A DNA stretch of 64,000 nucleotides from Kriegella aquimaris. GTDB taxonomy: Bacteria > Bacteroidota > Bacteroidia > Flavobacteriales > Flavobacteriaceae. The notes under the pieces are model-generated. The model did not search any database, had not been told where the DNA came from, and saw nothing but the letters and a program-made list of their open reading frames with translations. Shown in pieces: positions 40,904 to 64,000 of this stretch (its first letter is position 1; the number at the start of each line of letters is the position of its first letter). The stretch covers positions 124,001 through 188,000 of the forward strand of contig NZ_FNGV01000007.1 in the NCBI RefSeq assembly GCF_900103215.1, written 5' to 3'. Made by a program: the position numbers and the translations under genes.

Positions 40904-40913
40904 CACGAGTGTT

Positions 40914-44336: not shown

Positions 44337-44428
44337 AAATTTGAATGTTAATTAGTTTTTTTAATTAATGATTCCGGGGGTGGAGGTTTAAATTTTCCAG
44401 ATCTAGACTCCATTCCCTTTTTTAAATT

Positions 44429-45565: not shown

Positions 45566-45687
45566 AAGCGATTTTATTTGCCTCTTATCAATAAGACAAA
45601 CAAATTGTCAAAATGGGTGACAAAAAAATATAATATTTTAAAATTTGATGATTTTAAATGAGAATTACATAATTATTAAAGTCATTG

Positions 45688-46236
45688 TCACATTGTGGAG
45701 AACAGTAGTCCAATGTAGATAATGAGTTCGCCTAATCTTACCTTGGCCCTTTTTAATTGGGTTTTTACAGTATTGGTAGATACGCCCAATTCTCTTGCTA
45801 TTTCTTTGTAGGGGTAGTTATTGATAAAACGCAGCATGACGATTGCGCGCATTTTTGTTGGTAAATTCTCGATTACATTGCGAATCTGTTCGTGGCGAAC
45901 GTGTTTTTCTTCTTCAGGGAAGAAATCTGGGCTATAAGAAGCCTTTGTTATGAGAATTTTTGATATATCCGTAATCTTTATCGCTTTTAGGGTATTTAGA
46001 CACCTATTCCGAACCATAGCATATAAATAGGCTTTCAGATTAGTTTTGAGATTAATGCTATTTGATTTTTCCCAGAGATATACAAAAACTTCCTGTACAA
46101 CATCTTCACTTGAATCCTTGTCAAAGAGATATTCATTGGCATAATTGACCAATTCTGGATACAGGCCTTCGAAGAGCCTTTTAAATACAAAATGGTTTTT
46201 ATTCTGTATCTCCCTAAAGATTGTTTTTGAGTCCAA
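45688..46236 (-). CDS. ECF RNA polymerase sigma factor (FecI-like)
   Basis: 182 residues with sigma region 2 (about 12-78, SSEDVVQEVFVYLWEK) and region 4 (about 115-168, with the helix-turn-helix YPYKEIARELGVSTNTVKTQLKRAKVRL). This is the Bacteroidota FecI-like type that pairs with FecR and an STN-bearing SusC. It should drive transcription of the leftward sulfatase/GH78/SusCD genes once released. Its start is 476 bases from a divergent GH78-like gene, and the gap carries a pair of inverted repeats. Confidence 0.95.
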   Translation of the reverse strand: MDSKTIFREIQNKNHFVFKRLFEGLYPELVNYANEYLFDKDSSEDVVQEVFVYLWEKSNSINLKTNLKAYLYAMVRNRCLNTLKAIKITDISKILITKASYSPDFFPEEEKHVRHEQIRNVIENLPTKMRAIVMLRFINNYPYKEIARELGVSTNTVKTQLKRAKVRLGELIIYIGLLFSTM

Positions 46237-46712
46237 AATTAATATTGAATATACGCTGTTTTTATCCTAAAGACCTAATTCTTCTTACTAAAATGTGCTA
46301 CTTCCCTAAGCAAGTTTCATAAAAAACTCTCGATGAGAAAAATTTGGGTATTCGAAAAAAAGAATCCAAATAGTATCGTCTTGGTCCTTAATTACTCAGA
46401 TAAATTCATTTATCTTCTTTTTTGATTAACGATAAAACAATGATATGCATTATTATTTGGAAGCGTATCCTGTACTGTACTGCAGTTTTATTTAAGCAAT
46501 GAGAGTGGATTGGAATATAAAATCATTTATTCTTCCATAATAATATGTAACGCTGATTGGCATATATAATATCAGAGCCAAACCATGTGAATTTTTGAAT
46601 AGTCTATTTAATACTAACCGTAATTAACCCTGGATATTTTGGTTACAGTATGGTACAGGATAGTTTTACATCTTCTAAAGTCTAATTTTAACGCTTAACT
46701 TAAAAATAGAAA
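46237..46712. other. Divergent intergenic region with paired repeat elements
   Basis: 476 non-coding bases between the ECF sigma gene and the rightward GH78-like gene. The only strong structure is the 17-base element at 46466-46482 and its inverted copy at 46646-46662. No perfect TAnnTTTG box was found on the plus strand; TATTTTG near 46634 comes closest. Confidence 0.6.
46466..46662. repeat. Pair of 17-base inverted elements (candidate operator)
   Basis: 46466-46482 reads TATCCTGTACTGTACTG. The reverse complement of 46646-46662 reads TATCCTGTACCATACTG. They match at 15 of 17 positions and are 163 bases apart in opposite orientation, the second ending 50 bases before the GH78-like start. Each also has internal symmetry around GTAC. 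This looks like a two-site operator allowing looping, by inference. Confidence 0.55.
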
Positions 46713-48496: not shown

Positions 48497-49525
48497 TTAT
48501 TCCGCCGGCACTGTTGATTCTCTTATTATTAGTTCATTGCGAATAATTAAGGTTTCAGAAACAATATTCTGGTCATTATCCTCAATTTGTTTGATAAGAA
48601 GGCGTGCTGAAGCTTGTCCCATTTCAAAGGCATGGTCTTCTATAGTTGTTAATGAAGGTTGAATGATTTTAGATATAGGTGTATTACTAAATCCCACAAC
48701 GGCGATATCTTGGGGAACAGAAAATTTTCGCTCTCTGGCTGTTTGAATAACGCTAACAGCAGTTATGTCATTGGCGCAAAAAATGCCATCGGGTTTTGTA
48801 TTCATATCGAATAACGCATTAGCAAAATGGCGTCCTTCTTCTTCGCTAAGGATGTTGCCATAAAAAATAAAATCTTCATTAATAGTCAAATTGTTTGCGA
48901 TTAAAGCGGCCTTATAACCTTCTAATCGGGCTTTGAATATTGAGGAATTTAAATTTCCTGCAATATGGGCTATTCTTTTACACCCAATTTTTGCTAGATG
49001 GTCGCAAGCTTTAAAGGCGGCATCGTAATCATTGATCAAGACTTTGTTTGATTCTAGGTCGTTGCAAACACGATCAAATAATACAAGGGGTATTTTTGTA
49101 TTTGCCAATTGTTTATAATGGTCGATATCGGATGTTTCCAAAGCTAAACAGGCAATAATGCCATCAGCCTTGTTAGACATCAATATCTCAACGCTTTCTA
49201 CCTCCTTTATATACGAATCTTTGGTTTGAAAAATCGAAACATAATAACCAGCTTCATTGGCAACTTCTTCAATTCCGCTTATCGAAGAAGAGTGAAAATA
49301 GCGATCTATTCTCGGGACTATTACACCAATATGATTGGTTTTTCTTCTTCTTAAATTTGATGCAACTGAATTGGGTATATAGCCTAGTTTTAAAGCTGTC
49401 TTTTTTATCTTCTCACGTGTTTCCTCTCCAATGCTGTGATGATCTTTTAATGCTCTTGAAACAGTAGATGTAGATACGCCTAAGATTTTGGCGAGACCTT
49501 TCATCGTTATACGTGTGTTTCCCAT
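48497..49525 (-). CDS. LacI-family transcriptional regulator
   Basis: About 342 residues from the preferred start at 49525 (MGNTRITMKGLA); an upstream ATG at 49564 would add an odd leader and run into the operator. The N-terminal helix-turn-helix reads MKGLAKILGVSTSTVSRALKDH, with hinge NSVASNLRRRKTNHIGVIVP, followed by a periplasmic-binding-protein-like sugar domain (GFSNTPISKIIQPSLTTI). Two AAACG-centred palindromes lie in its upstream region, so it probably represses itself and the divergent GH109-NagB genes until a sugar effector binds. Effector unknown; an amino sugar is the contextual guess. Confidence 0.95.
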   Translation of the reverse strand: MGNTRITMKGLAKILGVSTSTVSRALKDHHSIGEETREKIKKTALKLGYIPNSVASNLRRRKTNHIGVIVPRIDRYFHSSSISGIEEVANEAGYYVSIFQTKDSYIKEVESVEILMSNKADGIIACLALETSDIDHYKQLANTKIPLVLFDRVCNDLESNKVLINDYDAAFKACDHLAKIGCKRIAHIAGNLNSSIFKARLEGYKAALIANNLTINEDFIFYGNILSEEEGRHFANALFDMNTKPDGIFCANDITAVSVIQTARERKFSVPQDIAVVGFSNTPISKIIQPSLTTIEDHAFEMGQASARLLIKQIEDNDQNIVSETLIIRNELIIRESTVPAE

Positions 49526-49560
49526 CCCGTAAAAGTAATAAATAATCCTATTGCATTTTA

Positions 49561-49576
49561 ACACAAACGTATGTGT
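49561..49576. promoter_or_regulatory. LacI-type operator candidate 1
   Basis: ACACAAACGTATGTGT is a near-perfect 16-base palindrome centred on CG, the usual LacI-family operator geometry. It lies 35 bases upstream of the LacI start at 49525, suitable for autorepression. Confidence 0.6.
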
Positions 49577-49703
49577 AATTATCTAAATTTTTAATACGAT
49601 ATGTTAAAATAATATTCAGAATTTGCTATTTGATAATATTTCAACTACTACAATATCAATATTTTATATTTAAACTGTTGCTTTTGCTGAAAAAACAATT
49701 AAC

Positions 49704-49719
49704 ACACAAACGTTTGCGT
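49704..49719. promoter_or_regulatory. LacI-type operator candidate 2
   Basis: ACACAAACGTTTGCGT shares ACACAAACGT with operator candidate 1 and has a perfect central CAAACGTTTG palindrome. The two centres are 143 bases apart, which would permit a repression loop. Upstream of the GH109 gene by about 300 bases. Confidence 0.6.
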
Positions 49720-50017
49720 ATATATTATTGTTTTGATAGATTTACGGGAACTATGAATTGATTTGCAAGGTTGGTATTGAAGTATCGCTTATGTTTTTTT
49801 TGGAAAAATAATAGGATTAAAACATTTGTTCAACGCATAAAAGACTTACGAAAAACCCCCCAAATAAATTCAACTTATTGGAATGAAACTGGCAATTGTA
49901 AGCCGAATTGAGGTGTTCAATTATAAATAGCGAATTGTGATAAAAGCTAATGCTATAAGCGTAAAGCTATGTTCGTAGGTTGAAAAAAGAACGTAGCTAA
50001 ATAAAAAAAATGCTCTA

Positions 50018-51445
50018 ATGAAAAATCAAACTCGAAGAAATTTTATCAAGTTATCTGCATTGAGTACAGGGTTTTTAGGACTTTCTGCACATGGTGTATT
50101 TGCCCAAGATGAAATTCAAAAAAGAATTGCTGGCCTTAGTGAAACGCCGCAAGCTATTGGTAACTCGGCAATCGGTCTAAAATACGACCCCATTAAACAG
50201 GTGAGAATAGGTGTCATAGGAGTTGGTAACAGAGGGTACGGCCATGTAAAGAATATTAATTCATTACAGCCGAATGCGAAAATAGTTGCTATTGCCGATG
50301 TTAGGGAAAGTAGAGCTAAAAGAGCATTGGAACTGCTGAATAAATTGAACAAAAAAAAGCAGTCTATTGATTTGTATTTCGGTGACGAAGAAATATGGAG
50401 AGATATGGTAAAACGAGACGATATTGATTTGATAGTTGTCGTCACGCCTCCCACCGAACATGCGCACATGGCAGTTTATGCAATGGAACAAGGTAAACAT
50501 GTCGTATCGGAAGTTCCGATTGCACTTACTATTCAAGAGTCATGGGACATTATTAACACTGCTGAAAAAACGCAACGGCACTGCATGATGCTTGAAAATT
50601 GCTGTTATGGAGAAGAAGAGCTTTGGGTTTTAAACATGGTTAAGAACAATGTCTTTGGTTCGTTGACCCATGCAGAAGGAGGCTACATTCATTCCTTGTT
50701 ACAAAAATTGTTCGTAAAAAGCGATGACCCTGCCACTAGTGCTTATTACAAACAATGGCGGTTAAGGTTACATGCCGAAATGCATGGAAACCTATACCCG
50801 ACCCATGGATTGGGTCCGATCGCTAATTATATGGATATCGGCAATGGTGACCGGTTCGATTATCTTGTTTCAATGGATTCTTCAGAAGAGTCTTTGCATC
50901 AATATGCTACACAATCGTCACCTGATAACGATTTTTATAATCAAAAGAACTTTTCTCATGGCGATATGAATAGTTCAATGATAAAAACGGCAAAAGGAAG
51001 ATCGATACTACTACAGCACGATGTCGTTTCACCTCGCCCCTATAGCCGCATTAATGCTTTGTCAGGAAGTAAGGCATACCATGAAGGGTATCCCAGCCGC
51101 TTATCGCTGTACGACGAAGGTCTTGGTCATGATTGGCTCAACGAAGAAAAGTTTAAGGAAATGCAAGAAAAATATGAACATCCGATTTGGCATAAAATGA
51201 AGGAAGATGCTCAAGAGCAAGGAGGCCATGGAGGCATGGATTACATTATGTTCTACCGTTTAATTCAAAATTTGAATAATGGATATCCCATGGACATGAA
51301 TGTCTATAACGGGGTTGACTGGTCCGTAATTCTACCACTTACCAAGTTATCGGTCGAATTGGGAAGCATACCTATCAAATTTCCTGATTTTACCCGAGGT
51401 AATTGGAAAGAAGAAAGAGAACTAGGGTTCTTTCAAAACATATAA
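50018..51445 (+). CDS. GH109-type NAD-dependent glycosidase (Gfo/Idh/MocA fold)
   Basis: GH109 enzymes are alpha-N-acetylgalactosaminidases that use bound NAD in a redox-assisted mechanism. 475 residues: a Tat-type leader (TRRNFIKLSALSTGFLGLSA), so it is exported folded with cofactor; a Rossmann fold with GVIGVGNRGYGH (66-76); then family marks LENCCYGEEELWVLNMV (192-208), GGYIHSL (221-227) and GNLYPTHGLGPIANYMD (257-273). The Tyr and His of YPTH match residues reported as important in the characterised enzyme. NagB-like deamination is encoded 30 bases downstream, supporting an amino-sugar substrate. A related oxidoreductase function cannot be excluded. Confidence 0.85.
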   Translation: MKNQTRRNFIKLSALSTGFLGLSAHGVFAQDEIQKRIAGLSETPQAIGNSAIGLKYDPIKQVRIGVIGVGNRGYGHVKNINSLQPNAKIVAIADVRESRAKRALELLNKLNKKKQSIDLYFGDEEIWRDMVKRDDIDLIVVVTPPTEHAHMAVYAMEQGKHVVSEVPIALTIQESWDIINTAEKTQRHCMMLENCCYGEEELWVLNMVKNNVFGSLTHAEGGYIHSLLQKLFVKSDDPATSAYYKQWRLRLHAEMHGNLYPTHGLGPIANYMDIGNGDRFDYLVSMDSSEESLHQYATQSSPDNDFYNQKNFSHGDMNSSMIKTAKGRSILLQHDVVSPRPYSRINALSGSKAYHEGYPSRLSLYDEGLGHDWLNEEKFKEMQEKYEHPIWHKMKEDAQEQGGHGGMDYIMFYRLIQNLNNGYPMDMNVYNGVDWSVILPLTKLSVELGSIPIKFPDFTRGNWKEERELGFFQNI

Positions 51446-51475
51446 CACAAATTTTACAAATTAAAAGCTTAGAGT

Positions 51476-52213
51476 ATGGAGATTATAATTTCAAATGACA
51501 AACAAGAATTGGGTGAAAGCGCGGCGAAACGGGGTGCGGAGTTAATTCGTAAAGCAATTGAAAAAGAAGGGGAGGCAAATATAATTGTCGCAACGGGTGC
51601 ATCACAGTTCGAGATGTTGTCTGAACTTGTAAAAGAGGATGTAGATTGGACAAAGGTAACCGGATTTCACCTTGATGAATATGTAGGTATGCCAGATGTG
51701 CATAAGGCCTCATTCCGTAAATACCTGAAAGAACGATTTGTTGATTTGGTACCTCTCAAAAAGTTTTATTACATAGCGGGTGATGCTGAAGACCCATTGG
51801 AAGAGTGTAATAGGATCGGTAAGATAATTTCGGGTATTAAAATTCATGTAGCCTTTGTTGGAATAGGTGAAAACGGTCATTTAGCCTTTAATGATCCACC
51901 AGCAGATTTTGATAGGGAAGAAGCTTATTTCGTTGCTGATTTAGACAAAGCTTGTAGAGAACAACAACTTGGCGAAGGTTGGTTTGCTTCCTTGGAAGAT
52001 GTTCCTAAGCAAGCCATTAGTATGTCGGTTAAGCAAGTATTGAAATCAGAAGCAATAATAGCGAGTGTTCCTGATAGCCGTAAGGCTAACGCTGTTAAAA
52101 ATTCAGTCGAATCAGAAATTTCTCCCGAGGTTCCGGGTACGGCGTTAAGATTACATCAAAAAACTTGGTTGTATTTAGATAAGGCGTCTGCAGCTCTTTT
52201 AAGTGAGTCATAA
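51476..52213 (+). CDS. Glucosamine-6-phosphate deaminase-like protein (NagB family)
   Basis: Cytoplasmic NagB-fold enzyme of 245 residues, expected to turn an amino-sugar 6-phosphate into a ketose phosphate plus ammonia. The motif FHLDEYVG (64-71) and HKASFRKYL (76-84) match NagB. At the second active-site motif it reads [14 protein letters not shown] (129-142): the histidine is kept (H135), but the E. coli Asp141 position is N133 and the Glu148 position is D140. Such changes may mark a different substrate, for example galactosamine-6-phosphate, or a NagB-like subfamily. It is co-transcribed with the GH109 gene. No kinase or deacetylase gene is in the window. Confidence 0.8.
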
Positions 52214-52567
52214 GAGATTTTTTTTAGTATAACAGAATTAAGTAAAGCAAATAAACTGATTATATGGATAATGAACTTAACTGGTTGAATACCTTGGTTA
52301 ATGCTCGATATTTTTATGATGATGGTGATGATATTCCGATATGTTCTGGGTAGTTGGTGAACTTCCGAATAAGAAGTTTGCCACTTAGGACAACATTGAT
52401 TAATACCTGAACGGGTTAACGAGTATACACGAACTGACTTGGGGTATGTTGTTTTTCTAAAGCGCATATTGAAATAGGTCCTATGAGTTCCGCAATTAAG
52501 AAGTATTAAGCTATACCCTTTTTCCTTTTTTTTTGCTTGAGCGATTAACTAACTAATAAAAAAAACT
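52214..52567. other. Intergenic region before SusCD pair 3
   Basis: 354 bases with no supported gene. A weak hairpin (AACTTC 52360-52365, GAAGTT 52373-52378) and a T-rich stretch at 52517-52533 are the only visible structures. A promoter for the SusC gene is likely here, but no clear -7 box was found. Confidence 0.5.
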
Positions 52568-55500
52568 ATGAAAATTAAATTAAATTATGCATTTGTTTGT
52601 TTGAGAAGGAAGGTGCTAATGAACGTGATGAGAGCCTTTATTCTTTTGTGTTTTACAAACGTTTTTAGTGCTACACCAAATGTTGTTGTTTCTGAAAAAG
52701 TTCCACAGCAGCAGATAAGCGGTACTGTAGTTGATCAAAACGGACAACCATTACCTGGTGCCAACATTCTTGAAAAGGGAACAACGAATGGTACACAAAC
52801 AGATTTTGATGGGAATTTTTCAATTCAATTAGAAAATCAGAACGCTACGCTTCTAGTGTCTTATTTGGGCTTTGTGACTAAAGAAATTGAAGTAACAAAC
52901 CAAACTTCCTTAGACATTGCTTTAGAAGAAGATGCTAATAGTCTAGATGAAGTAGTAGTAGTAGGTTACGGTACCATGAAAAAAAGTGACCTTACCGGAT
53001 CGGTAGCAAATGTAAGTTCCGATACCTACAAAGATCAACATATGACGCAAATTACCGATATGCTACAAGGTACTGTCGCGGGGCTGAACATGACTCAAGG
53101 GACCACTGCTGCCGGAGGAGGAGCGATTGAAGTAAGGGGGGCCAATTCATTGAATGCATCGACCCAACCGATGATCGTTGTCGATGGTTCTATTTACAAT
53201 GGAAGTCTTCGTGATATAAACCCTTCCGATGTTAAATCAATTGATATCTTGAAAGATGCTAGTTCTGCAGCTGTTTATGGATCTAGGGCATCTTCGGGTG
53301 TAATTTTGATTACAACGAAAGGTGGAACCAAAGGGAAAACCAGCATCAATTTCACATCACAGGTTGGAGTAGTAAGTACAACCAATAAATTTGCCCCTAA
53401 CGATGCCGGTCAATACCTTACGTTTCGACAAGATGTGAAGAGAGCGCTTGATACGAGTTCGCCTTCTTTTTATTATGACAACCCAAACCAGTTGCCAACC
53501 GGGGTAAGCCTTGACCAATGGAGAGGTGCGAGTAATAATCCCAATGCCGATAATACTAGGGAATGGTTGACAAGACTTACATTTTTCCCTGTTGAAATGG
53601 AAAACTATATCAACGGAAAATCAGTTGATTGGTATGATAAAGTTATACGCAAGGGAGCTGTTCAGCTAAAATATGATTTGAGTATCAATGGAGGAACTGA
53701 TGAGTTTACCTATTTCTGGTCTATGGGCTACATGGAAAATGAAGGTATTGTTCTCGGTGATGACTATTCTGCCTTGACAACACGTTTGAATTTAAACTTC
53801 AAGCCTACAAAATGGATGGATATTGGGATGAACACACAATTCACAAATCGGGATGAAAGTTCGGTTGCAGCTGATTTAGGCGATATGTATCGGATGAGTC
53901 CTTATGGGTCGGAATATAATGACGATGGAACCATAAAAAGATACCCCAATGACTTTACCGTTGCGAATCCTTTACTTGAATATTACGGACAAGATCGTTC
54001 CAATAAAATTAACTCGTTATTTAGTACCTTATATACAAATATTCAATTACCATTCGGTATTAAGTATAAATTATCTTTCCAACCTAGATTTGAATTTTCG
54101 GGAGATTACAATTTTTGGTCGTCTGAAACAATACAAGGTGGTCAAAGTGGGTATGCAACAAGGGAAGAGTATAATTCCTTTAACTGGATATTGGATAATA
54201 TAATTACATGGAAGAAGACATATGGAGCACATTCTTTCGATTTAACATTATTGCAAAGTGCAGAGCAAAATAAGTCCACCTATTCTTATTTACAGAATGA
54301 GCAATTTACACCAAATCAAAACCTTGGTTATAATGGCCTTCAATATGGCGTAAATCCTGCGGTAAGCACGAACGACAAAGAATCTACTGCTGATGCATCA
54401 ATGGCACGATTAAATTATGTCTTTAATGATAAATATCTTCTAACAGCGTCTGTGAGAAGAGACGGGTACTCTGCATTCGGACAAGAAAATCCAAGAGCTG
54501 TCTTTCCCGCTGTAGCGCTGGCATGGAAAGTTTCTGATGAAGGTTTTTTTAATGTTGACCAAATAAATCAAATGAAACTCCGAGCGTCTTGGGGAATAAA
54601 CGGTAACCGCGATATCGATATTTATGGCTCATTGGCTCAAACACAATCAGATATTTATTATGATGGAACCAATACCCAGGTTGGTGTATACAACAGTACT
54701 TTAGCTAATAAGTCTTTGCGTTGGGAGAAAACGGAATCGCTCAATTTTGGTCTTGACATGGGCATGTTCAATAACCGTATAAATTTTGCCGCTGATGTCT
54801 ATTTCATGAAAACAGTAGATCTTCTGATGGAGCGAAAATTACCTGAAATTACCGGGTATTCTTCGATTTTATCGAACCTTGGTGAGTTACAGAACAGTGG
54901 TGTAGAAATGACGCTGAATACAGTTAATATCAGCAATGAGAATTTAACATGGAAAACGGATCTTACTTTTGCTCTTAACCGAAATAAGATTAATAAATTA
55001 TTCAGCAATTTTGATGAAAATGGTGTTGAATTGCCCGATTATACAAATGAATGGTTTCCAGGTCAAGCTATAGATGCTGTTTGGGATTATAAAACCTTGG
55101 GAATTTGGCAAGTTGATGAGGCTGCCGGCGCTGCTGCTGTTGGATTAGAGCCAGGAGACTGGAAAGTCGAAGATATTGATGGTGACGGAACCTATGATGA
55201 ATTAACCGATAAACAGTTTATTGGGTACACAGAACCTCGGTTTAGACTGGGAATGAGAAATCAGTTTAATTTCTTAAAACACTTTTCTGCTTCAATTTTT
55301 CTAAGAGGTGAATTTGGTCAACTAGGAGCATTCTCTTATGCGCTTCGAAATGGGGGTAGCGATACTTATGATAGAAGAAATGAAGTGAATATTCCCTATT
55401 GGACAGCAGACAATCCAATAAATGATTATCCGCGTTTGATTACCAATACAACAGTGTATGGTGGTGGAATTCAAATATATAAACCAAATTCTTTTGTAAG

Positions 55501-55690
55501 GGTACAAGATTTGACCTTGTCATACAACGTACCTTCTGCTTTTATGGAGCGTAATGGTATGTCTAATGCCAGAATATTTTTCTCTGGACACAATATATAC
55601 ACTTTTTCCAAATGGCCGGGATGGGATCCAGAATCGCTGAACAATCCGTTGACAAAGACATATTCATTAGGATTTAGTATAACATTATAA
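52568..55690 (+). CDS. SusC/RagA-like TonB-dependent transporter (pair 3)
   Basis: 1040-residue outer-membrane porter: leader (about 1-35, MRAFILLCFTNVFSA), CarboxypepD_reg-like domain (about 49-120, ISGTVVDQNGQPLPGAN), TonB-box-like DEVVVVGYG (127-135), plug and barrel ending YSLGFSITL. No STN domain, so control is more likely through the LacI regulator than through a sigma/anti-sigma pair. Followed by its SusD partner 21 bases on. The context (GH109 and NagB-like genes) suggests import of an N-acetylhexosamine-containing glycan. Confidence 0.95.
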   Translation: MKIKLNYAFVCLRRKVLMNVMRAFILLCFTNVFSATPNVVVSEKVPQQQISGTVVDQNGQPLPGANILEKGTTNGTQTDFDGNFSIQLENQNATLLVSYLGFVTKEIEVTNQTSLDIALEEDANSLDEVVVVGYGTMKKSDLTGSVANVSSDTYKDQHMTQITDMLQGTVAGLNMTQGTTAAGGGAIEVRGANSLNASTQPMIVVDGSIYNGSLRDINPSDVKSIDILKDASSAAVYGSRASSGVILITTKGGTKGKTSINFTSQVGVVSTTNKFAPNDAGQYLTFRQDVKRALDTSSPSFYYDNPNQLPTGVSLDQWRGASNNPNADNTREWLTRLTFFPVEMENYINGKSVDWYDKVIRKGAVQLKYDLSINGGTDEFTYFWSMGYMENEGIVLGDDYSALTTRLNLNFKPTKWMDIGMNTQFTNRDESSVAADLGDMYRMSPYGSEYNDDGTIKRYPNDFTVANPLLEYYGQDRSNKINSLFSTLYTNIQLPFGIKYKLSFQPRFEFSGDYNFWSSETIQGGQSGYATREEYNSFNWILDNIITWKKTYGAHSFDLTLLQSAEQNKSTYSYLQNEQFTPNQNLGYNGLQYGVNPAVSTNDKESTADASMARLNYVFNDKYLLTASVRRDGYSAFGQENPRAVFPAVALAWKVSDEGFFNVDQINQMKLRASWGINGNRDIDIYGSLAQTQSDIYYDGTNTQVGVYNSTLANKSLRWEKTESLNFGLDMGMFNNRINFAADVYFMKTVDLLMERKLPEITGYSSILSNLGELQNSGVEMTLNTVNISNENLTWKTDLTFALNRNKINKLFSNFDENGVELPDYTNEWFPGQAIDAVWDYKTLGIWQVDEAAGAAAVGLEPGDWKVEDIDGDGTYDELTDKQFIGYTEPRFRLGMRNQFNFLKHFSASIFLRGEFGQLGAFSYALRNGGSDTYDRRNEVNIPYWTADNPINDYPRLITNTTVYGGGIQIYKPNSFVRVQDLTLSYNVPSAFMERNGMSNARIFFSGHNIYTFSKWPGWDPESLNNPLTKTYSLGFSITL

Positions 55691-55711
55691 TAACCTTAAA
55701 TAACCTTAAAG

Positions 55712-57481
55712 ATGAATAAAATACAAAAACAACTTGCAATATTAGGTTTGGTTATGTTTGTCATGATCACCTCATGTTCGAAAGATTGGTTAGAGCCAAA
55801 ACCTTTATCTTTTTTCAGCCCTGAAAATGTGTATGTTGATAAGGAAGGGTTTGAGTCAATGCTTTATACGTTGAGAAAGGCTTTGAAAAGTGAAAATACC
55901 GGATATTTGAATTCTATAGCTGCTGAGTATTCAGCTTCTGATTTAGCGTCTCCTTGGTCTCAACTTGATTTCCATAAGCTTACGCCGAATCAATCGCAAT
56001 ATTATCCTTTTTTAGATTTTTTCACAGAAACATTCGGTCATATCAAGAATGCAAATGTTGCTATATCGAGAATCGATGATATTGAGTGGGATAGTCAGGA
56101 CGACCGTAATGCAATTTTAGCGGAAGCCCTATGGCACAAATCATATTGGTATTATCGATTGGTAAATACCTATGGAGATGTTCCTTATGTAAATGAGGAA
56201 ATTACGGGCGAAAAGCTTGATTTTCAGACAACCAGCAGATGGACTATTCTAACTCAAATGGAGGAAGATTTGGAATTTGCTGCACAATGGCTACCCGATG
56301 TTGCGGGTCCTGGAGATATCTCTAAAGGAGCTGCGAATTATTTGTTGACAAAGGTTTATCTCGCAAACAGTAAGTTTGACCAAGCTATTACAAGCATAGA
56401 CAAGGTTATCGAAGGGCCTTACTCATTAATGGAAGATAGATTTGGTGTTGATGTAGCTGATACAAACCGAAATCTGATTTGGGATCTTCATCGTCCCAAA
56501 AACTTCAATTCTTCTGAAAATAGAGAAACAATACTTGCTGTTGTAGATAGGTATGAAGCTCCTTCCGATGCACGGTCCGATGGATTATATACGATGCGTA
56601 ATTACAACGCTCAGTGGTTCCAGCCAGCTGTGTTGGATAGTCAGGGTGCACCCGGTATGACAATTGACGGTAGTGGGCAGGTTATGTATGATTCGCTAGG
56701 CAGAGGAAATTGTAATGTGCGCCTCACCCATCATTATCAATATAAGTTATGGAATTATGGCGGACAGACTTGGGAAAACACACAAGATTTAAGACGTGCC
56801 GATATTAACTGGGTCGATAAGCATGAATTATTGTACAATAATCCTAGTTCTGTAGATTTCGGAACACCGGTTAAAGAAGAGTACTTCGCGCAAGCAATTG
56901 ATACGTTTAAGTATATTTATGCAATGCCGCATTATATTATGTATGTTCCCCAAGATGACCCTACGGCAAGACCTATGGGAGGAAATGGCGACTGGTACTT
57001 ATTCAGGTTGGCCGGTGCTTATTTGCTCAGGGCTGAAGCCTATTACTGGAAAGATCAATTGGCAAGTGCTGCTGATGATATTAACATGGTAAGAAGAAGA
57101 GCGAACGCGATACCGATATCAGCGGGAGATGTCACGCTTGATTTTATTTTTGATGAAAGGGCAAGAGAGCTTTTTGCAGAAGCCCCTAGACATTCAGAAT
57201 TAGTAAGAGTGTCATATATACTAGCACAGCAGAATAGAGATGGTTATAGCCTCAGTGGCTTCGGAGACAAGAATTTTTATTATGACCGCGTAATGAAGTA
57301 TAATAAAACCTATGAAAAGCAAGTCACTTTACTGGGTAACACAGCGGGTATGGAACCTTACCATGTACTCTGGCCTATTCCCTCTAAAATAATTACTGCT
57401 AATACATTAGGTGTAATTAACCAGAATTATGGTTATGATGGTTATGAAAGAAACGTACCACCGCTAGAAGTGATCGAATAA
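55712..57481 (+). CDS. SusD/RagB-like glycan-binding lipoprotein (pair 3)
   Basis: 589-residue SusD homologue, longer than the other two (495 and about 505), with extra loops in the middle (about 260-380) that may shape the binding site. Lipobox MITSCSKD (C22). N-terminal WLEPKPLSFFSPENVY, LFRLAGAYLLRAEAYYW and the C-terminal HVLWPIPSKIITANTLGVINQNYGY are SusD features. It follows its SusC by 21 bases and ends in a long hairpin. Confidence 0.95.
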   Translation: MNKIQKQLAILGLVMFVMITSCSKDWLEPKPLSFFSPENVYVDKEGFESMLYTLRKALKSENTGYLNSIAAEYSASDLASPWSQLDFHKLTPNQSQYYPFLDFFTETFGHIKNANVAISRIDDIEWDSQDDRNAILAEALWHKSYWYYRLVNTYGDVPYVNEEITGEKLDFQTTSRWTILTQMEEDLEFAAQWLPDVAGPGDISKGAANYLLTKVYLANSKFDQAITSIDKVIEGPYSLMEDRFGVDVADTNRNLIWDLHRPKNFNSSENRETILAVVDRYEAPSDARSDGLYTMRNYNAQWFQPAVLDSQGAPGMTIDGSGQVMYDSLGRGNCNVRLTHHYQYKLWNYGGQTWENTQDLRRADINWVDKHELLYNNPSSVDFGTPVKEEYFAQAIDTFKYIYAMPHYIMYVPQDDPTARPMGGNGDWYLFRLAGAYLLRAEAYYWKDQLASAADDINMVRRRANAIPISAGDVTLDFIFDERARELFAEAPRHSELVRVSYILAQQNRDGYSLSGFGDKNFYYDRVMKYNKTYEKQVTLLGNTAGMEPYHVLWPIPSKIITANTLGVINQNYGYDGYERNVPPLEVIE

Positions 57482-58211
57482 TAATAAGATAGATAGAACT
57501 AACCCCACTATTAAAGAAGTTGATGGTGGGGCTAGTAAAAGATATTGTGGTAGTTCACCGGCAATGGTTAAGTATCGATTTCTGTTTCTAATATATCAAC
57601 GTAATTATCAGGTTATTAGGTGAGTATAAGTTTTAAGATTGCATCTATAAATCCTTTGCTCAACGTAAATACCGCAATAATAGTCATAGTTTATTTTCTC
57701 TATAATTGTTTTTCGAAGGCAGCGCTTTATGGCAACAGTTTTTGAATGGTGTTAGCCCCCAACACAGGCTATTCTTTTTTTTGAGTATCAAAAGCAATAC
57801 ACCGGTCTTTAATCTTAGTATATGGGAACGATGAAATTCACTTTTCACTTTTACTTGCATAAAAAAGCTTTTTCTTCGTAAGAAGAAGGAAAAATGAAAT
57901 TTGTCTGCGATGCAGTCTTAAACCATATTGGAGTTTCTTTGTTTGTGTTGAAATATAGATAAACCTTCCGCTTATGCCCATGGTTTTGGTGGGAGTTTGT
58001 TTAGCTGTCGGCTTGATTTATTAGAGAGTAACAATTCGTTTTATAAAGGGAAAATGAATTGGGTTTCTAGGGTAAAACTATCGGAAATTGTATCTTTTCA
58101 GAGAATTCGATTTTGTATTTGAGAAAACCATAAAGGTTAGGTCAAGTGATAAAATGGAAAATAGAGAAAAAAGGAGTAGGTGTCCTAATAAATAAAAAAT
58201 AGCAACTAATC
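57482..58211. other. Long intergenic region with a 3' hairpin
   Basis: 730 bases without a convincing gene in either strand. Near the start is the hairpin at 57499-57535. The remainder is AT-rich with scattered T runs; I see no repeats, palindromes or homology to neighbouring genes. It probably holds the promoter of the oxidoreductase-led unit downstream. A decayed gene cannot be excluded. Confidence 0.5.
57499..57535 (+). terminator. Long hairpin after SusD pair 3
   Basis: CTAACCCCACTA (57499-57510) pairs with TGGTGGGGCTAG (57524-57535): ten Watson-Crick pairs, one G-T and one mismatch around a 13-base loop. It lies 18 bases past the stop. No T run follows, so it may protect the 3' end as much as terminate. 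Confidence 0.55.
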
Positions 58212-59522
58212 ATGAACGGAAAAAAAACGGATAACGGAAGAAGGAATTTCGTAAAGACTGGGGCAACTGCCATAGCAGGAGGAGCATTGTTGAGTAGTTT
58301 TCCAATGAAGGCTTTTGGTGCTGGCCAACAAAAGGAAATACGTATTGGTCTCGTAGGCTGTGGTGGTAGAGGAACCGGTGCGGCACATGAAGCACTTAAG
58401 ACATCAAAGGCGGTAAAATTAGTGGCCCTTGGTGAAGTTTTTGAAGATCGGTTAAACAGTGCTTATCAGAATCTAAAGAATACCTATGGAAATCAAGTGG
58501 AGGTTCCTGATTCCAAAAAGTTCATAGGTTTTGATGCCTATCAAAAGGTTATCGAGAGTTGTGATGTAGTTCTTTTGGCCACACCGCCACCGTTTCGACC
58601 GCTCCATCTTGAAGCTGCCGTAAAAGCCGATAAACATGTTTTTATAGAAAAGCCTTTGTTCGTAGATATTCCTGGATATCATAAGGTAATGGGAATCAAC
58701 GAATTGGCAAAGCAAAAGAACCTGAATTTAGGTGTAGGTCTTCAGCTGCGCTATGAAAACGGTTATCAGAAGATGAAAGAGCAAATCGATAGCGGTATGA
58801 TTGGAGATATAACATCTTTAGATGTGTATTACAATGTAGGCGCACCTAAAATACATCCCCGGCAACCGGGCCAGACGGAAATGAATTATCAGGTGAGAAA
58901 CTGGAGGTATTTTACTTGGCTTTGGGGAGGCCAATTGGCGGGGCAGACCATTCATCAAATAGATTTGATAAATTGGTTTATGAACGATTATCCGGAGGTA
59001 GCCCAAGGATTAGGTGGAAGGCAATCGTTTAATGGGCCCGACCAAGGGAATACCTACGACCACCATTATGCAGAATTTGAATATTCCAATAAGATCAAGT
59101 TACACGTTCAGTCCAAAACTATGGATAATACATGGAATAAGGTCGGTTTCCATATTCAAGGGACAAAAGGTTATGCCAACGAAAAATCTGAGATTTACAA
59201 TACGGCGAATGAACCGATATGGAGGTATCGTGATCAAGAGGAGACAGTAGGTCCGACCCAAAAATGTCAGTCCGACTTCATTAATTCGATAATCAATAAT
59301 AAACCGCTAAATCAAGTGGACTATGGAGCAAAGTCTACCTTGACCACTATTGTAGGGAGAATGGCTATTCACTCTGGGCAAATAATCACGGTTGAGGAAG
59401 CCTTAAAATCTAAAAAAAGTATTTTACCCAAAGAGTTTAATTGGGATGCCGAGATGCCTTCTATGCCGGGCCCTGATGGTAACTATAGTATACCAGTGCC
59501 AGGTAAAGTTGAGGTACTTTAA
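58212..59522 (+). CDS. Gfo/Idh/MocA-family oxidoreductase with Tat signal
   Basis: 436 residues: an RR leader (NGRRNFVKTGATAIAGGALLSS), so export by Tat is expected; a Rossmann fold with IGLVGCGGRGTGAA (about 46-58); the EKPL motif of the family (FIEKPLFVD); and a substrate-side segment WLWGGQLAGQTIHQIDLINWFM. It is probably an NAD(P)-dependent dehydrogenase or isomerase acting on a sugar in the periplasm. It lacks the YPTHGLGP and GGYIHSL marks, so it is not GH109. It leads a rightward run with an NRAMP-like transporter, an epimerase and an aldolase; gaps are 86, 79 and 4 bases. Confidence 0.85.
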   Translation: MNGKKTDNGRRNFVKTGATAIAGGALLSSFPMKAFGAGQQKEIRIGLVGCGGRGTGAAHEALKTSKAVKLVALGEVFEDRLNSAYQNLKNTYGNQVEVPDSKKFIGFDAYQKVIESCDVVLLATPPPFRPLHLEAAVKADKHVFIEKPLFVDIPGYHKVMGINELAKQKNLNLGVGLQLRYENGYQKMKEQIDSGMIGDITSLDVYYNVGAPKIHPRQPGQTEMNYQVRNWRYFTWLWGGQLAGQTIHQIDLINWFMNDYPEVAQGLGGRQSFNGPDQGNTYDHHYAEFEYSNKIKLHVQSKTMDNTWNKVGFHIQGTKGYANEKSEIYNTANEPIWRYRDQEETVGPTQKCQSDFINSIINNKPLNQVDYGAKSTLTTIVGRMAIHSGQIITVEEALKSKKSILPKEFNWDAEMPSMPGPDGNYSIPVPGKVEVL

Positions 59523-59608
59523 ATTCAGTGAAGGTCGGTATTTGGTGAAATGCCCAATCGATATAGTCATCTAGAAACTGAATAATATTAATATTAAAAT
59601 GAGATTAT

Positions 59609-60835
59609 ATGCCAACTCCCCCAAAAAAGGAAGGCTCAAAACTAAATAGGTATTTAAAAAAAATCGGTCCCGGCATTATTACTGCGGCCCTGGTCTTTGG
59701 TCCGGGAAGCCTCACAATAAATACCAAGTTGGGCGCCAGTTTCGGATATTCGTTGCTCTGGGTATTGATACTGACAGTTATATTGATGACGGCATTTACA
59801 AATATGTCGGCCAGGATCGGACTTGATAGCTCCGTTTCTTTTATAGAACGAATAAAGAACGAATTGGGCAAGCCGCTTGCATTTATGGTCGGTATCGGTA
59901 TTTTTCTGACAACTGCCTCTTTTCAAGCCGGTAATACGGTGGGCGCCGCTGTCGCCTTTTCCGAACTTTTTTCTACATCCTTGATACTTTGGATTATACT
60001 ATTTACCTCGGCCGCTATTTTCCTGTTATTTTTTAAATCTTTTTATAAAATTTTAGAAAAATTAATGATCGGGTTGGTGGCGCTTATGCTACTTTCTTTT
60101 TTGCTCACTATCATTATGGCGGCACCCGATATTTCCGAGATACTCAAAGGGTTCATTCCCTCGGTTCCTAAAGGATCCGAGTACCTCATTATTACCTTGA
60201 CCGCATCGAGTTTCTCCATTGTAGGCGCCTTTTATCAGTCTTACTTGGTACGGGAAAAAGGATGGAAACGTACCGAAGTGAAAGACTGCATGAGGGAAAG
60301 TCGCAACGGGATTATAGTATTAGGACTGCTTTCTACTTTGGTAATGCTTTGTGCTTCGGCGGTGCTTCACCAAAACAATATTGAGGTACGCAGTGCGTCT
60401 GACCTGGGAATGGCGTTGGAGCCCTTGTTCGGACCGTTCACTTCGAGTGTTTTTATGATCGGTTTTTTTGCTGCGTCATTTTCGTCGATGGTGGGCAATG
60501 CCACGATCGGTGGGGTGATATTGGCGGATACTTTTTTTTCCGAAAGCAACTTGAGCAGCTTCAAAGTCAGATTGATGATAATTTTAGTGGTGCTGATCGG
60601 GGCCGTAGTTGCCTACATTTTTGGAGCACTTCCGTTGGAGCTCATCATTTTCGCCCAAGGGATAACGATTATGATTGTGCCTTTGGCCGCTGTCATCATT
60701 CTGATTTTTGCAAACTCCAAAAAAATGTCCCTCGAATTAAGGAATTCAAAATATTCGAACTTTATGGGGGCCTTGGGAATTCTCGTTCTTTTACTGATGT
60801 CGGCTTATAGCATCGATTATTTATTTTTTAGATAG
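59609..60835 (+). CDS. NRAMP-fold transporter lacking the canonical metal-binding motifs
   Basis: 408-residue inner-membrane protein with about eleven helices. The start LKKIGPGIITAALVFGPGS...GASFGYSLLW aligns with the NRAMP pattern G-P-G-x-n-DPGN, but the TM1 motif DPGN is GPGS (31-34), and the TM6 MPH motif is replaced (SFSIVGAFYQSYLV, 201-214). Both are the residues that hold Mn2+ or Fe2+ in true NRAMPs. The fold belongs to the LeuT-like APC superfamily, so another substrate is plausible: Mg2+-type NRAMP relatives exist, and the sugar-enzyme neighbours suggest a sugar-derived acid. The substrate is inference. It would be annotated automatically as a divalent metal transporter; treat that with caution. 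Confidence 0.75.
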   Translation: MPTPPKKEGSKLNRYLKKIGPGIITAALVFGPGSLTINTKLGASFGYSLLWVLILTVILMTAFTNMSARIGLDSSVSFIERIKNELGKPLAFMVGIGIFLTTASFQAGNTVGAAVAFSELFSTSLILWIILFTSAAIFLLFFKSFYKILEKLMIGLVALMLLSFLLTIIMAAPDISEILKGFIPSVPKGSEYLIITLTASSFSIVGAFYQSYLVREKGWKRTEVKDCMRESRNGIIVLGLLSTLVMLCASAVLHQNNIEVRSASDLGMALEPLFGPFTSSVFMIGFFAASFSSMVGNATIGGVILADTFFSESNLSSFKVRLMIILVVLIGAVVAYIFGALPLELIIFAQGITIMIVPLAAVIILIFANSKKMSLELRNSKYSNFMGALGILVLLLMSAYSIDYLFFR

Positions 60836-60914
60836 GAAACCTAAAACAGGTATAGACAAAATTTATTTTTTGCCTACCAAACGGAATGATTAGATTAATA
60901 CAAATTGTAAATAA

Positions 60915-61937
60915 ATGAAAATTCAAAATGTACATGACCTTGAGGTGAAACTGGCGGAAACCACGCCAGAACTTATCGATGACCTAAGGAATGTAGAAGG
61001 TGATATTATGATCTTGGGCCTAGGAGGAAAAATGGGTCCTAGTCTGGCCAAATTGGCCATTAATGCGATTCAGGAAGGAGGTCTTGATAAAAAAGTAATA
61101 GGTGCCTCGAGATTTTCGAACAAAGCGATGAGGGACGAACTGGAGGCCTATGGAGTGCAGACTATAGCGGGAGACCTGTTGGATGAAAATTTTTTACAGA
61201 GCTTGCCCGATTGCAAGAATGTTATCTATATGGCGGGTAATAAATTCGGCACCTCCGGGAACGAGCATTTTACTTGGGCCATGAACGCTTACCTCCCAGG
61301 AAGGGTCGCCGAAAAATACAAAGATTCAAAAATCGTGGTCTTTTCAAGCGGCAACATCTATCCGTTTATGCCTGTAGAAAGTACCGGGGCAAATGAAAGC
61401 GTGGCACCAAGCCCCATCGGGGAATATGCGCAATCTTGTTTGGGTAGGGAAAGAGTTTTTGAACACTTTGCTATCAAAAATAATACACCGATGGTAATTT
61501 TTCGATTGAATTATGCCGTTGATCTTCGATATGGGGTGTTGTGCGAGGTAGCAAAATCGGTATTCAATAAGAGACCGATCGATATCACCACGGGTTATGT
61601 GAATGTCATTTGGCAAGGTGATGCCAATAGTTATGCGCTGAGATCCTTACGGCATTGTACGACACCTCCCCAAAAGTTGAATTGTACGGGCCCAGAGGTT
61701 ATTTCCATCGAATGGTTGGCCGGCAAATTTGGGGAATTGATGGACAAACCTGTTGAATTCACCGGCACATCGGCACCTACCGCACTACTCAACGACGCCT
61801 CTTATTCTTTTGAACTCTTTGGAAAGCCTAAGGTAAAGCTCCAAGAAATCATAGAATGGACGGCCCATTGGGTCATGAACGGTGGGGAAGATTTAGGGAA
61901 ACCCACTCATTTTCAACAACGTAAAGGCAATTTTTAA
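60915..61937 (+). CDS. NAD-dependent epimerase/dehydratase-family protein
   Basis: 340-residue cytoplasmic short-chain dehydrogenase of the extended type. The cofactor motif is ILGLGGKMG (33-41), preceded by about 30 extra N-terminal residues. FSSGNIYP (143-150) supplies the Ser/Thr position. The catalytic Y-x-x-x-K reads YAQSC (171-175), so tyrosine is kept but the lysine is cysteine. Other epimerase marks (RLNYAVD, NVIWQGDAN) are intact. Reaction unknown; it may oxidise or epimerise a sugar or sugar acid processed with the adjoining aldolase, whose start is 4 bases after this stop. Confidence 0.8.
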   Translation: MKIQNVHDLEVKLAETTPELIDDLRNVEGDIMILGLGGKMGPSLAKLAINAIQEGGLDKKVIGASRFSNKAMRDELEAYGVQTIAGDLLDENFLQSLPDCKNVIYMAGNKFGTSGNEHFTWAMNAYLPGRVAEKYKDSKIVVFSSGNIYPFMPVESTGANESVAPSPIGEYAQSCLGRERVFEHFAIKNNTPMVIFRLNYAVDLRYGVLCEVAKSVFNKRPIDITTGYVNVIWQGDANSYALRSLRHCTTPPQKLNCTGPEVISIEWLAGKFGELMDKPVEFTGTSAPTALLNDASYSFELFGKPKVKLQEIIEWTAHWVMNGGEDLGKPTHFQQRKGNF

Positions 61938-61941
61938 ACGT

Positions 61942-63012
61942 ATGCAACAAGAATTGAAACCGGAAATAAAGGAACTGCTTTTTAATGGCACGGTAATACC
62001 GGCATATCCATTGGCCTTGGATTCGGAAAGGAACTTTGATGAATTCCATCAACGATTATTGACCAGATATTACGTTGCCTCCGGTGCAGGGGGTATTGCC
62101 GTAGCAGTACATACCACACAGTTCGCTATCAGAGATCCAAAGATAAATCTGTTCGAAAAAGTATTGTCCGTAGCCGCCGACGAGGTTTTTAAAATAGGAC
62201 CGAAGCGGCCATTTATAAAAGTAGCAGGGGTCAGTGGTCCATCCGAACAGGCAGTAAAGGAAGCGCTGATTGCAAAAAAATTGGGTTATGATTTGGTATT
62301 GGTAAGCATAAATAGACTGGGCGATTGGTCTGAAAGCGCTTTACTAGACCGTGCCCGTGAAATCGGGAAACACATGCCCTTGTTTGGGTTTTACCTACAG
62401 CCTTCGGTCGGTGGAAAAGTACTTAGCGAAAAATTTTGGAAAGATTTTTCTGAGATTCCGAGCGTGCAGGCCATTAAAATAGCTCCGTTCAATCGCTATC
62501 AATCCCTCGAAGTGGTTAGGGCGGTTTGTAAGTCTTCACGATGCAATGATATTGCTATCTACACCGGCAACGATGATAATATCGTTAACGACCTTTTGAC
62601 CACCTATCAAATAATGACGGATAAGGGAATAGTGAATAAAGAGATTGTGGGCGGACTGCTTGGTCATTGGGCGGTTTGGACCCAAAAGGCGGTCGAATTG
62701 TTGAAAACGGTAAAGGAGATTAAAAAAGGGGGGAACCAAATGAGCAGGGCAATGCTTACCGAGAATATCAAGGTAACCGACGCCAATGCCGCATTTTTCG
62801 ACGCCAAGAACAATTTTAGGGGATGTATCGCGGGAATCCATGAAGTGCTCCGTAGACAAGGACTTTTAGAAGGCACATGGTGTCTTGACGAGAACGAAGA
62901 GATGTCTCCCGGGCAAAAAGAGGAAATAGACAGGGTATATCAAGAATATCCAGAATTGAACGATGATGCTTTTGTTATGGAAAATATTGAAAGTTGGAAG
63001 AACAACTTATAA
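61942..63012 (+). CDS. Dihydrodipicolinate synthase/N-acetylneuraminate lyase-family aldolase
   Basis: 356-residue DapA-family (class I aldolase) protein, a TIM barrel. The Schiff-base lysine fits K179 in AIKIAPFNRY and the partner tyrosine Y151 in FGFYLQPSVGG. The early motif, GTTGE in true DapA, is replaced by AVHTTQFAIR (55-64), so a lysine-synthesis role is unlikely. Family members with sugar neighbours cleave 2-keto-3-deoxy sugar acids or related ketoacids; that is the working guess. It is coupled to the epimerase-like gene (4-base gap) and is about 60 residues longer than E. coli DapA. Confidence 0.85.
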   Translation: MQQELKPEIKELLFNGTVIPAYPLALDSERNFDEFHQRLLTRYYVASGAGGIAVAVHTTQFAIRDPKINLFEKVLSVAADEVFKIGPKRPFIKVAGVSGPSEQAVKEALIAKKLGYDLVLVSINRLGDWSESALLDRAREIGKHMPLFGFYLQPSVGGKVLSEKFWKDFSEIPSVQAIKIAPFNRYQSLEVVRAVCKSSRCNDIAIYTGNDDNIVNDLLTTYQIMTDKGIVNKEIVGGLLGHWAVWTQKAVELLKTVKEIKKGGNQMSRAMLTENIKVTDANAAFFDAKNNFRGCIAGIHEVLRRQGLLEGTWCLDENEEMSPGQKEEIDRVYQEYPELNDDAFVMENIESWKNNL

Positions 63013-63073
63013 GACGATTCTTTTGAAGAGGACAAAATATATGGTAAATCTTAATATCGGCAGCAAATAAAAA

Positions 63074-64000
63074 ATGAGCTTGGCAATTCTTAAATATGGC
63101 AATCCTATAATCGTCTTTTTGTTGCTTATAGCATCCGGTTGTACGAAACCAACGACATTAGTTACTATTTCTGTTGCGGAACAAAATGGATTAGAACGAA
63201 ATTTAGAATATGTACAGGCAGACATTTCCCTACGGCATATTTTGAAACCTACAGAGAGCTTGGTTGCAGTCGGTCTCGATGGTGTTGTTGTTCCCGTTCA
63301 AACAACGGATACAATTAGAAACGAGAACGGGACTGGGGTACGAATTGTCTTTCCTGTTGCTATGAATCCCCATGAAGTAAAGAAATTCAGTATTGAGAAG
63401 CATGATAAAGCAAAAGATACTTTAAGAAGTGATTTATATTATTCCGAAAAAGCCGTATTTGTTGAAAATGAACATTATACCGCCCACTTTGGAACAAATA
63501 AAGATAAAAGAGGAGGACAAGTACTGAATTTAGAATTAAAAGGATTCAACAATCAATTACTGCATCGAAATCATAGGACTCCCATTCATTGGGCACCCAA
63601 TTTTTCAAAAAGCGATTCAGACCGTTACTATACGATGGAAAGTTTGTCTCCATCATCAAAGAATAGTGTTAAGGGCAACGGACCTTATACAGTAACAAAA
63701 ATCCGCACGGGTGAGACCGATAGTGTTCCGGAAATTAATGTAAGGGGAAAATATAAATTTTACGCCGGCCTTCCTTATTTTGAATTTTCTTCCACCATGA
63801 CAGTAACCCAGGATGTGGAGTTAAGCCTTTTGAGGAATGATGAAATGACTATGGATAGCCTTTTTACCCATATCATTTTTGCCAAACCCGATAATTCGAT
63901 TATAAATTTAGGCCTGTACGATGAGGAACTTGATGTTTTAGAGAAAGAACACATTACGGATGACACTCCTTGGTTGGCATTCTATAATAAAGACAAAGGC
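63074..64000 (+). CDS. Exported lipoprotein of unknown function, 3' end cut off by window edge
   Basis: I read this frame by hand from an ATG at 63074: 309 codons without a stop to the window end. It starts with a type II signal ending IASGC (C23), followed by a beta-rich domain with YVQADISLRHIL, a DLYYSEKAVFVENEHYTAHFGTN segment and RTPIHWAPNFSKSDSDRYY. I do not recognise a family with confidence. Position after the aldolase gene (61-base gap) suggests it belongs to the same sugar unit, possibly as a surface or periplasmic glycan-active protein. The missing C-terminus could settle the identity. Confidence 0.6.
   Translation, partial: MSLAILKYGNPIIVFLLLIASGCTKPTTLVTISVAEQNGLERNLEYVQADISLRHILKPTESLVAVGLDGVVVPVQTTDTIRNENGTGVRIVFPVAMNPHEVKKFSIEKHDKAKDTLRSDLYYSEKAVFVENEHYTAHFGTNKDKRGGQVLNLELKGFNNQLLHRNHRTPIHWAPNFSKSDSDRYYTMESLSPSSKNSVKGNGPYTVTKIRTGETDSVPEINVRGKYKFYAGLPYFEFSSTMTVTQDVELSLLRNDEMTMDSLFTHIIFAKPDNSIINLGLYDEELDVLEKEHITDDTPWLAFYNKDKG

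Follow-up and report, generated by a model that had tools for sequence, protein, structure and literature searches.

Proteins of the Nramp family that lack the DPGN motif have been grouped as 'Nramp-related' and described as paraphyletic, diverse, and mostly uncharacterised (PMC12873925), and an 'orphan' outgroup of the Nramps has also been described (PMC10606218). The closest characterised examples carry very different functional labels. PxpT of C. glutamicum, reported in 2026 and assigned by its authors to the NRAMP family as a relative of YcsG (50% identity), is encoded with PxpABC, and its in-frame deletion stops growth on 5-oxoproline and can be complemented; this evidence concerns growth rather than uptake, and the authors leave a metal role possible (PMC13274462). 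YcsG itself is reported as a Mn2+ importer of B. subtilis, as its overproduction raised cellular Mn2+, MntR binds and represses the ycsG operon, and an mntH mntA ycsG triple mutant was unobtainable without a spare copy of ycsG (PMC10448178). The NRMT protein of E. lenta transports Mg2+ and has altered motifs, DxxG in TM1 and TxxA/T in TM6 (PMC8806188). A supplementary figure legend on alginate systems from Alteromonas sp. 76-1 gives an Nramp the label 'metal-ion transporter' (PMC6431674). Among carriers of the APC type, the helix-breaking TM1 GSG of AdiC binds the substrate carboxylate through backbone amides, and the serine side chain is dispensable (PMC5877779).

The carrier gene described here is at positions 59609-60835 on the forward strand of the window, by which we mean the whole 64,000-nucleotide stretch of Kriegella aquimaris DNA that was analysed; its open reading frame runs from ATG to stop exactly at these bounds and encodes 408 amino acids. 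The product belongs to Pfam family PF01566 (Nramp; E 2e-69, 234.8 bits against a curated cut-off of 29.8), and it also passes NCBIfam NF037982, which bears the name of a divalent metal transporter, at 103.8 bits against a cut-off of 50. An AlphaFold2 model built from 18 sequences (mean pLDDT 85.1, pTM 0.83) predicts the Nramp (LeuT-type) fold with helix breaks at residues 30-31 in TM1 and 202-203 in TM6; its top structural matches are Nramp-family chains (DraNramp 6d91, VIA Z 46.8; EleNRMT 7qji, Z 42.5), followed by AdiC and ApcT at Z of approximately 30 (AdiC, 30.6). The predicted fold is thus shared with the canonical Nramp/MntH proteins DraNramp, EcoDMT, and BfraNramp (VIA Z up to 46.8, at 23% identity) and with NRMT, the closest solved structure by profile (7qia, E 1.7e-46; VIA Z 42.4), and its LeuT type with the APC carriers that have GSG or GAG in TM1 (AdiC, ApcT, and the LATs; VIA Z approximately 27-31).

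The likeness to canonical Nramps does not, however, extend to the metal site. As a first-pass annotation of this DNA had noted, the DPGN and MPH motifs are missing: alignments show that TM1 reads F-G31-P-G-S34 (G31 to S34 at 59699-59710) where canonical proteins have D-P-G-N, and that S203-I-V (60215-60223) replaces MPH in TM6, each at a helix break of the model. In TM3 (Q106 to N109, 59924-59935), N109 occupies the position at which all three canonical rows of our alignment and the NRMT row have glutamate, and Q106 a position that is aspartate in two of the three canonical rows; the TM9 arginine pair of DraNramp aligns to a gap and Ile324. These changes are no local accident and are conserved across the clade of 39 sequences described below. 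G31 and N109 are present in all 39, and Q106 in 38; the TM1 motif is GPGS in 34, GPSK in three, and GPGN and GPGT in one each; position 203 is serine in 34, alanine in two, and valine in three. Both the TM1 aspartate and the TM3 glutamate are therefore gone from 39/39 rows, whereas they are kept by 3/3 canonical rows and by NRMT. The TM8 pattern A289-x-x-S292-S293 (60473-60487; all of these segments lie on the forward strand) has S292 in 39/39 and S293 in 38/39 rows, with serine at these places in canonical rows too, and we take it to resemble the Na2-site pattern of other LeuT-fold carriers; its function is putative.

The carrier thus shows none of the features by which a canonical Nramp/MntH protein would be recognised (DPGN with MPH, the TM3 glutamate with the TM9 arginine pair, and grouping with such proteins in the tree), and its gene neighbours differ from theirs. 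Nor does it have the NRMT motifs, since it reads GxxS in TM1, without an aspartate, and SxxS in TM6. It does fit the Nramp-related description, a PF01566 fold without the metal-site and proton-path residues, as given in PMC12873925. It is neither a new fold nor a new category of protein, as a DPGN-less Nramp group is already known (PMC12873925, PMC10606218).

Relatives were gathered from a GTDB contig scan (18 loci), from genome searches at phylum, class, and family level, and from a plasmid search in which 17 of 487 matched records were inspected. Left out before counting were shorter or duplicate copies (L001-L005, L025-L034, and L057; the window is represented by L046), a match below cut-off (L006), a 145-residue partial carrier in L063, a 575-residue Nramp-like protein in L037, and the broken carrier of L023, whose cluster still has the SDR and DHDPS-like genes discussed below. 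In a tree of 68 rows, 39 of them, including the window carrier, form one branch with 100/100 support; 33 are from Bacteroidota, five from haloarchaea, and one from Neorhizobium. Elsewhere in the tree are a 16-row group with FIGPG[TS] in TM1 (99/96), which contains the PxpABC-linked proteins, five [IV]GTGS-type proteins, three canonical proteins, and EleNRMT. After removal of seven long-branch rows, three of them clade members, the remaining 36 clade rows were still together (SH-aLRT 99) and the groups stayed apart, so that the phylogenetic check proposed in the first-pass annotation separates this GPGS clade from canonical Nramps, NRMT, and the PxpABC-linked clade alike. The clade is rare, occurring in 5/395 genomes of the phylum sample (matches of at least 298 bits), 5/395 of the class sample, and 11/397 of the family sample (matches above 370 bits), these samples being overlapping and each including the host.

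Two further sets of sequences were encountered during the sampling. By the contig end of L063 (12959-13997), a partial window-type carrier (the 145-residue open reading frame, 80% identical) is found with a partial Gfo gene, and the same genome has two other carriers of the GPGS clade. Haladaptatus proteins with GPATM in TM1 (L077, 4983-6308, and L078, 5058-6317) are each encoded directly after an annotated sodium:proline symporter gene, one of the two loci having TenA genes farther upstream as well, and constitute another outlying Nramp-like branch.

The name under which such proteins are annotated raises the question of whether the carrier supplies a divalent metal, Mn2+ or Mg2+, to metal-dependent enzymes of the locus. 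Its fold, its family, and the NCBIfam name agree with this, as do the reported influence of YcsG on cellular Mn2+ and its control by MntR (PMC10448178) and the transport of Mg2+ by an NRMT with altered motifs (PMC8806188); moreover, should YcsG prove to be without DPGN, like the PxpABC-linked proteins examined here, a carrier could lose that motif and still transport metal. We nonetheless regard metal transport as quite improbable. Loss of the acidic residues of TM1 and TM3 makes it unlikely that divalent cations are bound in the known manner. NRMT keeps both residues and branches apart; the Mg2+ option of the first-pass annotation is accordingly disfavoured, and was rejected as a main reading. 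Mn2+ or Fe2+ was likewise rejected as the main reading on the missing acidic residues and the gene neighbours, and is retained as a rival through the YcsG report. No metal regulator is annotated in the six clade loci that have public annotation, unlike the two canonical control loci, where MntR (Acetobacter) or a metal-dependent regulator (Deinococcus) adjoins the Nramp gene. A plasmid match from Peribacillus (L075) had been considered as a further control but is not canonical by alignment and was not counted. For metals, the host encodes FeoB and two ZIP proteins, which also speaks against a metal role; five PF01566 proteins of its genome are above cut-off, none with DPGN. The fixed linkage of the carrier to one enzyme gene, described next, is a further argument against a metal.

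What is new about the GPGS clade is its linkage to a cassette of an SDR and a DHDPS-like gene, the loss of DPGN and MPH being already known. Searches of 397 family genomes with the carrier and with the SDR, in which no more than four (carrier) or five (SDR) candidates per genome were scored, listed the same genomes: the carrier (above 370 bits) is in 11, in 12 copies, and the SDR in the same 11, also in 12 copies, the host included. All 12 pairs are adjacent or one gene apart, at a distance of no more than about 1.2 kb and of fewer than 150 bases in nine of the twelve. Six more matches in the carrier search, at approximately 240 bits, belong to the PxpABC-linked group. Across the whole clade an SDR gene lies within 9 kb of the carrier in 33/39 rows and a DHDPS-like gene in 31/39, and although the loci were chosen by the carrier alone, many are related and these counts do not represent independent events. 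Within 9 kb, the SDR was not found in Neorhizobium, in four of the five haloarchaeal rows, or in L037, and the DHDPS-like gene was not found in these same six rows, in L012, where the contig ends, or in L050. In Neorhizobium the carrier gene is immediately preceded by a DHDPS-family gene of another kind, and on L050, an archaeal plasmid, the carrier shares 33% and the SDR 49% identity with the window proteins. The host genome has one match each for the SDR and the DHDPS-like enzyme. Conserved linkage to the neighbouring enzymes had been set beforehand as a test of the first-pass reading, and it is borne out by these data. No PxpA, PxpB, or PxpC homologue is present near any of the 39 clade rows, and no hydantoinase neighbours were found in the six publicly annotated clade loci, to which that search was confined.

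In the window itself the carrier sits, as previously described, between an exported oxidoreductase and sugar-type enzymes. Upstream is an exported-type Gfo/Idh/MocA oxidoreductase gene (58212-59522, forward) recognised by family profile matches and with an RRNFVK leader; downstream are an atypical epimerase/dehydratase-like SDR (60915-61937, forward), a DHDPS/N-acetylneuraminate-lyase-fold class I aldolase-like enzyme (61942-63012, forward), and an exported or lipoprotein-like protein (63074-64000, forward) that has no Pfam match, runs off the window, and has a homologue near 7/39 carriers, its role in the locus being presumptive. Beside this unit is a SusC/SusD outer-membrane pair recognised by Pfam (52568-55690 and 55712-57481, forward), and a GH109-type Gfo/Idh protein (50018-51445) and a NagB-like deaminase (51476-52213), both forward, are probably also part of the unit. 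A LacI-family regulator found by profile scan (48497-49564, reverse) may serve the locus. Among the ten open reading frames of at least 150 codons in 48497-64000, the carrier is the sole recognised inner-membrane carrier, in keeping with its earlier description as the only transporter of the unit; nine open reading frames scanned elsewhere in the window include one MFS_2 carrier (7307-8764). The longest open reading frame touching the gap at 57482-58211 is 61 codons, and a promoter and terminator scan of 57300-63200 gave no excess above shuffled sequences.

The two downstream enzymes could be classified to different degrees. SDRs follow a YxxxK rule, and in this family an invariant cysteine is at the expected position of the catalytic lysine (Y171xxxC175), such that it may be an unusual enzyme. 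The window SDR has no Pfam match of its own, and its profile matches to solved structures are weak (E 1.3e-5 for the best, TerB oxidoreductase, to 3.8e-4); given this and the cysteine, assignment of a specific reaction was dropped. The DHDPS-like protein also lacks a DHDPS match in Pfam, and a relative in L008 passes the Pfam DHDPS cut-off (37.1 against 22.1). A profile of the family nevertheless has matches to N-acetylneuraminate lyase and DHDPS (best E 4.5e-7), and the invariant Y151 and K179 are presumably the tyrosine and Schiff-base lysine whose roles are known from the class. Its AlphaFold2 model (pLDDT 90.8) has a best VIA Z of 32.7, to 3pb2, and because the matches listed, DHDPS enzymes and one 4-hydroxy-2-oxoglutarate aldolase, score alike at Z 31.3-32.7, the fold search yields an enzyme class only. 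That class, DHDPS/NAL, is shown by the predicted fold together with the residues.

Two observations concern the wider genome. At 30229-48467 the window encodes four sulfatases, a GH78 alpha-L-rhamnosidase, and a GH78-like protein, suggesting that genes near the carrier unit serve the use of a sulfated, rhamnose-containing polysaccharide. On another contig of the same genome (C13; L089, 8113-10851), an 80.5% identical paralogue of the exported-type Gfo/Idh protein is encoded next to a permease of the APC family, as though a different LeuT-fold carrier had taken the place of the Nramp.

At other clade loci the cassette is accompanied by a varying set of genes. An exported-type Gfo/Idh homologue is within 9 kb in 14/39 loci, and a cytochrome-linked glucose/sorbosone dehydrogenase (GSDH), unrelated to Gfo/Idh, is near 5/39 carriers. 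Alginate-lyase-family homologues (PF05426) are near 3/39 carriers, in L019 and L021 directly upstream, and in Haladaptatus a heparinase II/III protein is directly downstream. The haloarchaeal loci have Gfo/Idh genes in 5/5 cases and an FAH-family hydrolase in 3/5. A galactonate dehydratase above its curated cut-off lies approximately 2.8 kb upstream of the carrier in L062, a GH28 protein is in the cluster of L058, and a 3-keto-disaccharide hydrolase is in that of L014. NagB-like, AgaS-type, M20, and GH109-like proteins occur in several clusters.

Because the relatives in the clade nearly always sit beside the same sugar-acid-type enzymes, we think that the carrier probably, if far from certainly, imports a sugar acid across the inner membrane, most likely an aldonate or a uronate-derived acid, and not a divalent metal. 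The conserved neighbourhood thus supports the sugar-acid option of the first-pass annotation. Its broader suggestion, of a new solute class for this fold, is partly pre-empted by PxpT with its 5-oxoproline phenotype (PMC13274462) and by the known DPGN-less group (PMC12873925). Among the papers listed by our literature searches, as judged on titles and the beginnings of abstracts, none was found to propose a sugar-acid role for an Nramp protein.

The same neighbours can be read as serving a different small organic solute of the pathway, such as a neutral or amino sugar, a lactone, a 3-keto sugar, or an amide-bearing compound. The weak resemblance of the exported Gfo/Idh protein to glycoside 3-dehydrogenases (53 bits against a cut-off of 750) and the hydrolase of L014 would suit such a solute; the NagB-like, AgaS-type, and M20 neighbours fit an amino sugar or amide-bearing compound equally well, and the GH109-like proteins can be added to them. 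We consider such a solute unlikely, as the lyases, the galactonate dehydratase, the FAH hydrolases, and the pyruvate-aldolase-fold enzyme point to acids, and genetics connects PxpT with a carboxylate (PMC13274462). As the surrounding genes vary between loci, the clade may not share one common solute.

For import of a sugar acid, the open reading frame, predicted fold, clade, motif loss, and linkage are carried by the data, and for the solute class, binding mode, coupling, and pathway chemistry we infer the following route. An exported dehydrogenase or lyase, to judge from the gene families, would make the acid outside the cytoplasm. The acid would occupy the pocket that accommodates the metal in canonical Nramps; there the backbone of the unwound TM1 G-P-G-S would contact its carboxylate, by analogy to the GSG of AdiC and the LATs, and polar residues specific to the clade, among them Q106, N109, Y209, Q210, and N297, would contact its hydroxyls. 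G-P-G could act like GSG through its second glycine. The analogy draws on similarity of the predicted fold and on inference; in a profile comparison with two host APC permeases a weak 63-column match was found elsewhere, with TM1 unaligned. A rocking-bundle alternation would then bring the acid in, with Na+, suggested by the TM8 AxxSS pattern, as the candidate coupling ion, the Nramp proton pathway being absent. In the cytoplasm, the SDR and the DHDPS/NAL-fold enzyme may turn the acid into a 2-keto acid and split this into pyruvate and an aldehyde.

The nearest comparison for such a carrier is the PxpABC-linked clade, which has the same PF01566 fold and TM1 G-P-G, lacks the TM1 aspartate, has asparagine at the TM3 glutamate position (16/16 rows), and is likewise encoded within a catabolic operon. 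It differs in TM1 (FIGPG[TS] rather than GPGS), in TM6 (mostly VVPYN rather than FSI), in forming a separate branch (99/96), and in having PxpABC or HyuAB rather than the SDR and DHDPS-like enzymes as neighbours. FIGPG[TS] carriers adjoin PxpA, PxpB, and PxpC in 10/10 Bacteroidota rows (L038-L041 and L068-L073), which suggests use of 5-oxoproline there. In 4/6 rows from outside Bacteroidota they are beside hydantoinase/oxoprolinase A and B; in the other two, the locus ends at the carrier (L080) or no hydantoinase/oxoprolinase is present (L052). That two unrelated oxoprolinase-type systems occur beside one type of carrier argues that the carrier moves the substrate of these enzymes, although in one hydantoinase-linked locus (L079) an annotated iron ABC transporter permease lies just upstream and counts against this. 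From its PxpABC linkage we take the 16-row group to be of the PxpT/YcsG type, neither of these sequences being among the rows of the tree; the reported MntR control of YcsG is a further difference of this type from the window clade (PMC10448178).

The contrasting reports on YcsG (PMC10448178) and PxpT (PMC13274462) could be reconciled if the carrier moved a complex of metal and organic acid, in which the acid supplied the ligands that the protein has lost. Uronates and aldonates do bind divalent cations. 5-Oxoproline, however, is a weak metal ligand, and as our analysis yielded no positive evidence for a complex we consider this very improbable.

The [IV]GTGS-type proteins provide additional observations. 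On contig C14 of the host genome (L042, 34-3672), an IGTGS-type DPGN-less Nramp gene starts 4 bp after a KDPG aldolase gene, upstream of which are a kinase fragment and a phosphofructokinase; these neighbours suggest a KDG/uronate link for the [IV]GTGS branch too. In L044 (6035-8491) and L007 (7421-9880), an IGTGS-type Nramp-related protein is encoded directly after an amidohydrolase with an exported-looking leader; that of L044 is NagA-like, just above cut-off, and in L007 the pair is immediately before a window-type carrier.

A wider proposal, which we advance tentatively and regard as possible rather than probable, is that the DPGN-less part of the Nramp superfamily consists at its root of organic-acid carriers. 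At least three branches would import carboxylates through a TM1 G-x-G, namely the GPGS clade with its sugar-acid enzymes, the PxpABC-linked clade with its 5-oxoprolinases, and the [IV]GTGS proteins with a host copy after KDPG aldolase, and metal transport would have arisen later, within the family, by gain of the aspartate and glutamate at this site.

Annotated plasmid relatives of the carrier bear the name 'Nramp family divalent metal transporter'. If the sugar-acid reading is true, a group of proteins in marine bacteria and haloarchaea has been mislabelled as metal transporters, and the clade provides a candidate carrier for uptake across the inner membrane in some polysaccharide and uronate pathways. 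The question of what the ancestors of metal-selective Nramps carried would then become answerable by uptake assays.
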